50,821 nucleotides of DNA from positions 1 to 50,821 of the forward strand of contig CALZHT010000072.1 in NCBI GenBank assembly GCA_945787445.1, in the 5' to 3' direction. Positions 10,372 through 50,710 of this stretch are shown one piece after another. The notes beneath the pieces are model-generated. The model was given only the letters and a program-made list of their open reading frames with translations, searched no databases and was not told the origin of the DNA. The translations under genes were made by a program, and so were the position numbers. Every line of letters begins with the position of its first letter. The first letter of the stretch is position 1. This DNA comes from an uncultured Desulfobulbaceae bacterium. Lineage in GTDB: Bacteria; Desulfobacterota; Desulfobulbia; Desulfobulbales; CALZHT01.

Positions 10372-10752
10372 GGAGGGAAGAATTTTTGTTAAATTGGAAA
10401 CCCGGATTATTGTAGGAATCGATTAGGATTATCATTGGCATTCCTGACGTTGTGGTACTATATATTGCCCCTTAACTACAGATACGATAGCAAAAAATAT
10501 TGTCGATAAATGTTGTCAACAATAATATTATCCAACTCCTAAAAACCAGCATTTGGTCCACATGGATTCTTGATTCACGGCCCTTGTTCCTATTTTTTAT
10601 ATACTATGACCTATGATGGTCAATTCATTCGTTCGTCAAAACTCCATACTTTCAGATGAACATTACTTTTCTATTGGACTCTACTATATTTATAGATATT
10701 GTTTTGTAAAGTAGATCCACAAGTCTGCCATTTCCTCTGCATGGGGTTTGTA
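10372..10752. other. AT-rich intergenic region upstream of the PflX-like gene
   Basis: No supported gene. It holds an imperfect inverted repeat around ATATTGTCGATAAATG...CAACAATAATAT near 10500-10530 and several AT-rich boxes that could serve as promoter for the downstream radical SAM gene. Nothing more can be assigned. Confidence 0.5.
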
Positions 10753-11730
10753 ATGATCGAGAAACAGCATACCGCCGGTTTTGAGCCAGGATACCTGAAA
10801 CTGTATGCCAATGGTGAGCTGGAGAAGCGCAAGAACGCTCTGCTCCATCGGCTCTCAGAATGCCGACTTTGTCCGCGCAACTGCAAGGTCAACCGATTGG
10901 AGGGCGAATTAGGGATGTGCCGCACCGGCAGGTTGGCCATGGTATCGAGCTATAGCCCCCATTTCGGTGAAGAAAGTCCCTTGGTGGGGGTTAGTGGCTC
11001 CGGCACCATTTTTTTTACCAACTGCAACCTCCTTTGTGTCTTTTGTCAGAACTTCGACATCAGCCATGAAGGATCAGGCTTTGAAGTGGAAGAAGGGCAA
11101 TTGGCTGCCATGATGATGAGTCTCCAGAAACAGGGCTGCCATAACATCAACTTTGTCACCCCGTCTCATGTTGTGCCCCAGATAGTCGAGGCCCTGCCTG
11201 TAGCCATTGAAAATGGACTGGATGTGCCACTGGTTTACAATACCAGCGGCTACGACTCCTTGGAAACCCTGAAACTGCTTGACGGTATCATTGATATCTA
11301 TATGCCTGATTTTAAGTTTTGGCAAAAGGAATCAGCAAAACGTTTCTGCAAGGCTGCTGATTATCCGGCACGGACCAGAGAGGCCTTTAAGGAGATGCAC
11401 AGGCAGGTGGGGGATCTTGTCATTGAAAAAGGCATTGCTCAAAAGGGACTTCTCGTGCGTCATCTGGTCATGCCGGGTGGCCTTGAGGAGACTGGCGAGA
11501 TTTTGCGCTTTCTGGCCGGAGAGATATCCCGGCACACCTATGTGAACGTCATGGATCAATATCGGCCCTGCGGCCATGCCATGAAATATCCTCCCATTGA
11601 CCGGATGCTTGATTCCGAGGAATACAGAGAAGCATTGCGGCTTGCCAAGGAAGCGGGTCTTAAACGGCTGGACGATCGTAACTGGGCCCGCATCCTCCGC
11701 CGTCTTGATATTCTCGATCATCTCATCTAA
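10753..11730 (+). CDS. PflX-like radical SAM protein (COG1313)
   Basis: 325 aa from the chosen start. The radical SAM motif CxxxCxxC is C91-NLL-C95-VF-C98, followed by QNFDISH. An N-terminal Cys set (CRLCPRNC and GMCRTG) is typical of this PflA-related family. The frame is open from 10699, but residues before MIEKQ have no family likeness, and GGGG lies 7 bases before the ATG at 10753; 10741 is the alternative. The family resembles pyruvate formate-lyase activating enzyme but its substrate is not established, and no glycyl-radical enzyme gene is adjacent. A long palindromic element follows the stop codon. Confidence 0.85.
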   Translation: MIEKQHTAGFEPGYLKLYANGELEKRKNALLHRLSECRLCPRNCKVNRLEGELGMCRTGRLAMVSSYSPHFGEESPLVGVSGSGTIFFTNCNLLCVFCQNFDISHEGSGFEVEEGQLAAMMMSLQKQGCHNINFVTPSHVVPQIVEALPVAIENGLDVPLVYNTSGYDSLETLKLLDGIIDIYMPDFKFWQKESAKRFCKAADYPARTREAFKEMHRQVGDLVIEKGIAQKGLLVRHLVMPGGLEETGEILRFLAGEISRHTYVNVMDQYRPCGHAMKYPPIDRMLDSEEYREALRLAKEAGLKRLDDRNWARILRRLDILDHLI

Positions 11731-11733
11731 GGA

Positions 11734-11906
11734 TTCGCGCAGAAATAACTTCACATTTTCACATCCCGTCTTCGGACCATCTTTGGCCGATCTTCAATTG
11801 CAGAATCCTCGACGTAGCGCTGCTACGCCTGTGGTTTTGCTCAATCAGCTCAGCTAAATCTAATCCAAACCTGGGCGCGAAATCTGCGAACTTATTTCTG
11901 CGCGAA
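11734..11906. repeat. Long palindromic intergenic element (copy A)
   Basis: Outer arms TTCGCGCAGAAATAA (11734-11748) and TTATTTCTGCGCGAA (11892-11906) are perfect inverse complements. Pairing continues inward imperfectly over nearly the whole 173 bp to the apical stem CGTAGC-GCT-GCTACG (11813-11827). It lies immediately after the PflX-like stop codon. It may be a non-autonomous element and/or a transcript-end hairpin. The same layout, with different sequence, is seen at 18987-19188. Confidence 0.75.
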
Positions 11907-11970
11907 CCCTAAGCAAAATCCATGGAATCATTTACTGATTTTCCCTCTTTACAATCTGTCCTCTTCTCTA

Positions 11971-11999
11971 TTGACCTGATTTAGGAAATCATGTATGTA
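11971..11999 (+). promoter_or_regulatory. Probable promoter of the cobT leader
   Basis: TTGACC (11971-11976), a 17-base spacer, TATGTA (11994-11999). Transcription would start near 12006, directly before the structured leader. The B12-riboswitch transcript at the right edge has the same TTGACC box. Confidence 0.45.
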
Positions 12000-12018
12000 A
12001 ATGCCTTGATTAGGAAGG

Positions 12019-12106
12019 AAGCCTTCGCGGACAAAAGGCTTGCCAAATGATCTTACGGATACAAAGGGACATCCCCGGGTCGATAAAATTCGGTCCGGGT
12101 TTTTTT
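12019..12106 (+). promoter_or_regulatory. Structured cobT leader; same module as downstream of the B12 aptamer at 50619
   Basis: Begins AAGCCTTCGCGGACAA, forms hairpin AAGCCTT/AAGGCTT, continues GCCAAATGATCT...GGATACAAAGGGACATCCCCGG and ends in a terminator. Its sequence aligns nearly end to end with 50619-50710, but there is no cobalamin aptamer in the 110 bases before it. cobT follows at once. It therefore looks like a stand-alone attenuator-type RNA linked to B12 genes. The ligand, if any, is unknown. Confidence 0.6.
12074..12106 (+). terminator. Leader terminator before cobT
   Basis: CCCGGGTCGA, loop TAAAA, TTCGGTCCGGG (10-bp stem with G-U pairs), then seven T. It lies only 12 bases upstream of the cobT ATG, with the Shine-Dalgarno just after the T run, so read-through would be needed to express cobT from this promoter: a typical attenuation layout. 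Confidence 0.75.
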
Positions 12107-12118
12107 ATGGAGGAAGAG

Positions 12119-13183
12119 ATGAATTTACTGGAACAGACCATTGTCGGCATTTCAGAACAGGACAATGCATATCGCGACAAGGCCAAAGCAAGGCTTGACC
12201 AACTCACCATGCCGCATTGGGCTTTGGGTAGATTGATGGATCTTGCCGTTGATCTTGCCGGCATGACCCGTTCCATGCGGCCGCCGATTGCCAGGAAGGC
12301 GATAGTCACCATGGCGGGCGATCATGGTGTGGCGGCCGAAGGGGTCAGCAGATTTCCCCAGGAAGTTACGCCCCAGATGGTTTATAATTTCGTTAACGGC
12401 GGCGCCGGCATCAATGCCTTGGCCAGGCAGGCAGGGGCAGAGGTTTTTGTCGTTGATATGGGGGTGGCCGCAGATATGAGCGAGCTTATTGCAAGCGGCA
12501 GGATTATCTCCAAAAAGGTTGCCATGGGCACACAAAACATAGCCAAAGGACCGGCCATGACCCGGGAACAGGCAATTTCAGCTATTGAAGGGGGCATCGA
12601 GGTTGCAAACAATCTTGCCGATTCCGTGGATGTTTTTGGAACGGGTGATATGGGAATAGCCAATACCACACCAAGCACCGCAATTGTGGCGGCAGTAACC
12701 AAGTCTCCTGTTGATATAATGACCGGCCGTGGTACCGGCCTTGATGACGACCAGTTCAATCACAAAATTAGAATTGTCGAACAGGCCTTGGAAGTAAATA
12801 ATCCCGATCCTCTAGACGGTCTTGATGTGCTTACCAAGGTGGGCGGTTTTGAAATCGGCGGTATTGCAGGAGTGATACTCGGGGCCGCGGCTCAGAAAAA
12901 GCCGGTGCTGATCGATGGCTTCATTTCCACGGCAGGCGCCTTGATCGCCCATTCTTTAGCCCCGGTCGTGAAAGAATATATCATCGCCGCTCATAGCAGT
13001 GTGGAACAAGGACACAAAATCATGCTTGAACACCTTGGCTGCGAACCGTATTTAGATTTGAAAATGAGGCTGGGGGAGGGGACCGGCGCTGCCCTTGCCA
13101 TGAATTTGTTGGAGGCGGCAGTTGCGGTCTTGACCGAGGTGGCAACTTTCGAAGAGGCTGCTGTGTCAGAAGCGGACAAGTAA
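12119..13183 (+). CDS. cobT: Nicotinate-nucleotide--dimethylbenzimidazole phosphoribosyltransferase
   Basis: 354 aa. Makes alpha-ribazole phosphate from nicotinate mononucleotide and 5,6-dimethylbenzimidazole (or another lower base) for the cobalamin nucleotide loop. Family motifs: TMAGDHGVAAEGVS, NFVNGGAGINALA, GTGDMGIANTT, KVGGFEIGGIAG, and the catalytic Glu at E320 in RLGEGTGAALAM. The frame is open upstream through the terminator hairpin, but GGAGG 6 bases before the ATG at 12119 fixes the start. No other corrinoid synthesis gene is adjacent. Expression is likely controlled by the leader at 12019-12106. Confidence 0.93.
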   Translation: MNLLEQTIVGISEQDNAYRDKAKARLDQLTMPHWALGRLMDLAVDLAGMTRSMRPPIARKAIVTMAGDHGVAAEGVSRFPQEVTPQMVYNFVNGGAGINALARQAGAEVFVVDMGVAADMSELIASGRIISKKVAMGTQNIAKGPAMTREQAISAIEGGIEVANNLADSVDVFGTGDMGIANTTPSTAIVAAVTKSPVDIMTGRGTGLDDDQFNHKIRIVEQALEVNNPDPLDGLDVLTKVGGFEIGGIAGVILGAAAQKKPVLIDGFISTAGALIAHSLAPVVKEYIIAAHSSVEQGHKIMLEHLGCEPYLDLKMRLGEGTGAALAMNLLEAAVAVLTEVATFEEAAVSEADK

Positions 13184-50014: not shown

Positions 50015-50427
50015 GTTATCTCCTTTTAATAATACCTCGTTATATCCTTTAATATGCACGTCAGGCTGTTTATATCCAATATTCATGCCATTGAACTGAA
50101 AAGAAGTAAAATTTAATTATTTCAATAATTTGCAGAAAGAAACAAATACCATCAGCATCAACAATTAGCCGTTTTTTCCGGAAATATGGAAATTAATGAT
50201 TGGGGGTAAATGTATAAGTGTATTATTTCAAATAATTTGAATAAGTTATTGGTAAATACCATTTTTTCGGAATTACGGAAAGGTGATTTGCACAACGAAA
50301 ATATCCCAATGCAATGATATGGGAAACAACTAACAAATTTTACTATTGAGGGAGGGTGTCGAGGGCAATTACAATCGTTATTTCTTTTTCTTGACCAATC
50401 TCTTGAAACTTTGTAAGTATGGCCACA
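50015..50427. other. AT-rich intergenic region with the riboswitch promoter
   Basis: No gene. Contains AT-rich direct and inverted stretches (TTATTTCAAATAATTTGAAT near 50223). TTGACC (50391-50396) with a weak TAAGTA/AAGTAT 17-18 bases later probably drives the riboswitch transcript. Confidence 0.45.
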
Positions 50428-50610
50428 TTCCAGGTGCTCCTTAGAGCATAAAAGGGAACCCCGTGTGAATCGGGGACGGGCCCGCCGCTGTGATCCCGCC
50501 TCTTTCGATAGGAATAGAGGAACCCTTATGACCGTTGCATGCCACTTTCCCGCCGGAGCGGGATGGGAAGGCCGTCATAAGGGCGGGAAAGTCAGAAGAC
50601 CTGCCTGGGA
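50428..50610 (+). promoter_or_regulatory. Cobalamin riboswitch aptamer
   Basis: Canonical elements in order: GGTGCTCC, GGGAAccccgtgtgaatcg, GGGACGGGCCCGCCGCTGTG, ATGCCACTtt (B12 box start), GGGAAGGCcgtcataaggg, and AGTCAGAAGACCTGCCTGG. Binding of coenzyme B12 normally reduces expression of the downstream transport or synthesis gene. Confidence 0.95.
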
Positions 50611-50618
50611 AAAGTTCA

Positions 50619-50710
50619 TGCCTTCGCGGACCAAGGGCAAGCCAAGTGATCTAGTGGATAAAGAAGGGACATCCCCGGATCGATTCTATATCGGTTCGGG
50701 GTTTTTTTTT
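50619..50710 (+). promoter_or_regulatory. Downstream module of the B12 riboswitch, repeated in the cobT leader
   Basis: TGCCTTCGCGGACCAAGGGC, AAGCCAAGTGATCTAGTGGA, TAAAGAAGGGACATCCCCGG. It aligns nearly base for base with 12019-12106 through hairpin 1, the GGGACATCCCC box and the terminator. In this position it acts as, or is fused to, the riboswitch expression platform. Confidence 0.65.
50673..50710 (+). terminator. Terminator of the riboswitch leader
   Basis: CCCCGGATCGAT, 5-base loop, ATCGGTTCGGGG (12-bp stem with G-U pairs), then nine T. It lies about 40 bases before the receptor start. Confidence 0.88.

Follow-up and report, generated by a model that had tools for sequence, protein, structure and literature searches.

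A cobalamin riboswitch expression platform lacking its aptamer, probably through aptamer loss, precedes cobT in an uncultured Desulfobulbaceae bacterium

Introduction

The cobT gene of an uncultured Desulfobulbaceae bacterium is preceded by a leader that resembles the downstream part of a B12 riboswitch on the same contig, while no cobalamin aptamer precedes the leader itself. Does this leader represent a separate class of regulatory RNA, or is it a part of a riboswitch that has lost the rest? An earlier note, made from the sequence alone, had put forward both possibilities, namely a separate RNA tied to corrinoid genes and perhaps sensing a different compound, or a platform left after aptamer loss. 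Here we analyzed the leader in the window (the whole stretch of 50,821 nt of DNA under study), in its own genome and among the genomes of its order, probably Desulfobulbales.

Results

Two homologous leaders and one aptamer

The cobT leader (12001-12108) is homologous to positions 50601-50709. The near-full alignment of the two copies claimed in the earlier note was thereby borne out, as was the presence of an aptamer before the second copy only. When the cobT leader was compared with its own genome (4.46 Mb) by BLAST, the sole other significant match was the B12 platform (81% over ~86 nt, E 7e-15), the next-best match having an E-value of 0.9. The sequence GCCTTCGCGGAC occurred twice against 0.16 occurrences expected (within one mismatch). 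The product of the gene behind the leader matched PF02277 with an E-value of 1e-135 and TIGR03160 with 447 bits (cut-off 319).

At gathering thresholds, Rfam reported one RNA in the whole window, the cobalamin aptamer RF00174, and no cobalamin match was obtained at 11900-12200 even at E<=10. A whole RF00174 element, that is, a B12-binding aptamer with the P3-P6 core and the B12 box, is absent before cobT; only the very end of its 3' strand is left there. Among the other Rfam families, the sole candidate for the module was NsiR1 (15.4 bits, cut-off 39), which was rejected as a resemblance between terminators.

An inverted-repeat element (11728-11917) with the ends AAGGATTCGCGCAGAAATAA and TTATTTCTGCGCGAACCCTAA, which looks like a MITE/REP-type repeat, separates a radical-SAM gene (10699-11730) from the cobT promoter. 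A second, partial copy with other outer repeats was found at G000:C4:37472-37551 (84% over 80 bp).

Table 1. Features of the cobT leader and of the intact B12 riboswitch in the window.
Feature	Position	Strand	Basis or remark
Promoter-like boxes TTGACC-17-TATGTA before the cobT leader	11971..11999	+	Geometry as in order-wide B12 riboswitch promoters
Left-over 3' end of the aptamer, AUGCCUUGA; agrees with CUGCCUGnA, with which B12 aptamers end	12001..12009	+	R1 position 1 aligns at 12001
GAUUA arm, predicted to pair with UGAUC (12048-12052) and to sequester the antiterminator strand	12008..12012	+	Folding
P13 hairpin, GGAAGCCUU / AAGGCUUgCC; loop L13 CGCGGACAA at 12026-12034	12017..12044	+	Kissing partner of L5 in intact riboswitches
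Predicted antiterminator: UGAUCU (12048-12053) with GGGUCG (12077-12082); GGAU (12057-12060) with AUCC (12071-12074)	12048..12082	+	Complementarity
Intrinsic terminator: stem 12074-12099, T7 12100-12106	12074..12106	+	Terminator search, covariation
cobT (NaMN:DMB phosphoribosyltransferase), 354 aa, intact	12119..13183	+	PF02277, TIGR03160
Promoter-like TTGACC-17-TAAGTA of the intact B12 riboswitch	50391..50419	+	Sequence
Cobalamin riboswitch aptamer RF00174	50415..50622	+	85.7 bits; L5 contains CCCGCCGCUG
Expression platform of the intact riboswitch (P13/L13, antiterminator, terminator)	50601..50709	+	R1 94.6 bits

Homologues identify the module as the expression platform of cobalamin riboswitches

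When 58 genomes of the order were searched by BLAST with the cobT leader, 33 of them gave matches. RF00174 was present in all of the first 20 loci scanned (L011-L030), and the sequences place the aptamer directly 5' of the module. A covariance model, R1, was built from the platforms of 18 relatives, with the sequences of the window left out. This model, made from aptamer-linked platforms, matched the own B12 platform with 94.6 bits and the cobT leader with 87.7 bits (E 3.6e-19).

Over the 58 genomes, R1 produced 136 matches, 108 of which were located directly behind a listed RF00174 by table matching. Seven matches were opposite-strand echoes, reflecting the reverse strand of terminators, and were discarded; one was the cobT leader itself, and the remaining 20 were scanned individually. 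Full aptamers were detected by cmscan in 11 of these, two (L079 and L081) were cut by contig ends, four (L085, L087, L088, and L089) were discarded as chance terminators, one (L073) contained the 3' part of an aptamer alone, and one (L072, genome G050) had no aptamer. The last one, L076 (102-460), had at first seemed not adjacent to an aptamer match; well over 100 nt are inserted into its cobalamin aptamer, which lies 5' of a normal platform. Aptamer motifs (B12 box or core) were also present in 79 of 80 further high-scoring platform copies in the order, the exception, L261, having the 3' part alone.

Altogether, about 205 platform copies were inspected. Two were without any aptamer (the cobT leader and G050:C13), two had the aptamer 3' part alone, two were cut by contig ends, and all the others were behind a cobalamin aptamer. 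Because nearly all the homologues found sit behind cobalamin aptamers, we conclude that the module, far from being a separate RNA class, serves the cobalamin riboswitches of the order as their standard expression platform. Further homologues and covariation (below), the checks named in the earlier note, do exist, but they show that the module belongs to a known riboswitch.

In L261 and L073, the B12 box and the 3' part of the aptamer are kept, and the 5' part is unrecognisable directly upstream; these are possibly decaying switches. The second aptamer-free platform (L072 758-869, minus strand; G050:C13:20557-20668) has TTTACA-17-TATGTA directly 5' of it. It precedes a PF01902 gene and is followed after ~0.9 kb by a complete riboswitch that has a TonB-receptor/exbB/exbD/tonB/binding-protein operon. 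As the PF01902 gene has no riboswitch in the congener G018, this orphan platform may have arisen by partial duplication. We found no description of aptamer-free B12 platforms in the literature searched, the coverage of which was incomplete.

Structure and conservation of the cobT leader

The first hairpin of the leader is P13/L13, the kissing partner of the aptamer loop L5. L13 reads CGCGGAC in the cobT leader, and CGTGGA or CGCGGA was found in 73 of 83 copies. This loop (CGYGGA) is complementary to the CCGC of L5, which reads GCCCGCCGCUG in most aptamers, and the cobT leader has kept the complementarity. In the alignment of 83 copies, which was fitted to the structure and hence leans towards it, 12 of the 15 pairs of P13 and the terminator had changed on both sides, as against 0 of 500 shuffles. 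The covariation of P13 and the terminator is strong, and conservation of the module extends beyond the terminator stem, as claimed earlier. The terminator itself is present before cobT, and its T-run (12100-12106) does end 12 nt 5' of the ATG at 12119, as had been noted.

Pairing of UGAUCU with GGRUCG and of GGAU with AUCC would form a probable antiterminator. The complementarity was 82% compared with 20-55% in slid controls, without covariation in the 83-sequence alignment; in a smaller, closer set, the pairing was above the slid controls and showed modest covariation. RNAalifold also proposed a second conserved helix, located between L13 and the joining region, but it is disrupted in cobT as well as in several other copies and was rejected. 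The folding energy of the single sequence was not unusual (z -0.6) and has no bearing on the question.

The cobT leader keeps 41 of the 46 positions that are conserved at >=85%, placing it ninth from the bottom among the 83 copies, and the remaining aptamer-poor copies occupy places 8 and 13. For this tiny sample, the ranks agree with a mild relaxation.

Promoter geometry and the junction before cobT

The pattern TTGACn-17-TAnnn[AT] was found in 46 of 125 intact riboswitches versus 1.0% of random windows, and the riboswitch promoter of the order is located ~140-205 nt 5' of the B12 box. Boxes of the type TTGACn-17-TAnnn are conserved among the B12 riboswitches of the order. The promoter-like boxes described in the earlier note are indeed present before cobT, but the -10 box is weak and they were not reported by a strict consensus scan.

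In the own B12 leader, the boxes are followed by 181 nt, then by CUGCCUGGG and the platform. In the cobT leader, the boxes are followed by the aptamer end and then by the platform, and the ~180 nt between the promoter and the last bases of the aptamer are missing. The adjacency of promoter, aptamer tail, and platform at cobT therefore matches what an aptamer deletion would leave.

A complete riboswitch was found directly 5' of cobT in three relatives, G002 (same family), G004, and G017. The gene, the platform, and its place are the same in these members of the order as in the cobT leader, but the relatives keep the RF00174 aptamer. None of the 80 CobT loci of a second genome collection had a platform directly before cobT, indicating that the riboswitch-cobT arrangement is patchy.

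Discussion

It is very probable that the cobT leader, located on one contig of a 227-contig assembly, is the platform of a former B12 riboswitch from which the aptamer has been deleted, and that it would now act as a B12-blind attenuator. Of the two possibilities raised beforehand, a platform left after aptamer loss is thus well supported: all homologues found are B12 platforms, the first hairpin is P13/L13, a full riboswitch precedes cobT in three relatives, and promoter, aptamer tail, and platform are all retained.

The deletion would have removed ~180 nt of aptamer, beginning immediately 3' of the -10 box and reaching the final nucleotides of the aptamer 3' strand, and left promoter and platform adjacent before cobT. 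In intact switches, the binding of B12 would cause L5 to kiss L13, stabilising P13 and favouring the terminator, while the antiterminator would open the gene without B12. At cobT, the B12 input in cis would be gone, resulting in a fixed fraction of read-through, so the gene is probably blind to B12. Since the terminator is intact, some attenuation of cobT is expected.

In the metE riboswitch of P. megaterium, the L5-L13 kissing pair was defined by mutation, and a stabilised P13 led to constitutively low expression regardless of corrinoid (PMC10653944). The latter result is the nearest experimental parallel to the cobT leader. The metE riboswitch (RF00174, with a transcription-terminating platform) and the leader have in common a P13 with an L13 that can kiss L5, a terminator directly before a corrinoid gene and, probably, an antiterminator-like pairing. 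In contrast, the cobT leader has no aptamer, and hence neither an L5 partner in cis nor a corrinoid binding site.

Folding of the RNA before the 3' arm of the terminator is made gave a preference for the antiterminator in most close platforms, which is what a switch that stays on in the absence of B12 should do. For the cobT leader, the antiterminator value was ~0.03 with starts at 12005-12008 versus ~0.7 with starts at 12009 or later; the start expected from the weak -10 box is ~12006. This suggests that the new 5' GAUUA arm would pre-empt the antiterminator strand and favour termination given a start no later than 12008, whereas antitermination would be the default with a start after 12008. 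The termination default stays a prediction that depends on the transcription start, because low antiterminator values were also obtained for ordinary platforms in a broader set.

The same arm could have retuned the leader, with GAUUA replacing the L5-L13 kissing in control of the antiterminator and with start-site choice, a protein, or another RNA as a possible input. In folding, the UGAUCU of cobT pairs with upstream sequence at 0.77, nearly the highest of the 83 copies, and the predicted state flips at the start site 12008/12009. However, this is a prediction for a single sequence, and the antiterminator probability is low for several ordinary platforms as well, making retuning unlikely. A related and equally improbable outcome would be a rewired platform, in which the 5' arm made at the deletion joint competes for the antiterminator strand, forming a minimal aptamer-free switch whose state would depend on where transcription starts or on a trans-acting factor, perhaps even the L5 of another riboswitch RNA.

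Gain instead of loss, i.e., a partial duplication that copied the riboswitch promoter and platform before cobT without the aptamer, seems quite unlikely to us. Of the platforms aligned, the own B12 platform is the closest to that of cobT (73%), and the absence of a riboswitch from the congener's counterpart of the gene behind the G050 orphan would fit such an event. On the other hand, the 73% is barely above the values for platforms of other genomes (72% and 71%), G002, G004, and G017 have cobT behind a complete riboswitch, and promoter, tail, and platform would all have to be copied minus the part between them.

The other possibility of the earlier note, a separate class of corrinoid-gene regulatory RNA that senses another compound such as DMB, alpha-ribazole, or cobinamide, found no support and is very unlikely. 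In its favour, conservation of the module goes beyond the terminator, the module has been retained before cobT, and a corrinoid riboswitch before cobT of A. halodurans can respond to cobinamide (PMC10653944). This activating riboswitch resembles the cobT leader in its position and in having P13 and a terminator, but it has a full aptamer and its P13 overlaps the terminator, whereas the leader has no aptamer and its P13 is clear of the terminator. Furthermore, two aptamer-free and two partly truncated copies among ~205 do not amount to a recurrent stand-alone family, and the conserved parts are those of the B12 platform, the cobT copy adding no new conserved element.

An assembly artefact, in which an aptamer present in the organism was lost from the MAG contig, could be imagined given the 227 contigs and the inverted-repeat element ~80 bp upstream, but is extremely unlikely, as the genome contains nothing else close to the junction sequence (11918-12118) apart from the diverged platform, the two platforms lie on one contig, and the exact words they share are too short for false joining of reads.

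We conclude that the cobT leader is an uncommon, aptamer-free variant of the B12 riboswitch and very probably a rare evolutionary remnant, with no pointer to a new ligand class. The loss of a riboswitch is seldom caught mid-course, and here a promoter and a platform appear to have outlived a clean loss of the aptamer. As RF00174 models the aptamer only, leaders such as that of cobT are missed by aptamer-based annotation, and the work with R1 yields an order-wide model of the B12 platform. Since cobT of the relatives keeps the whole switch, the behaviour of a platform without its sensor is testable directly on natural sequences.
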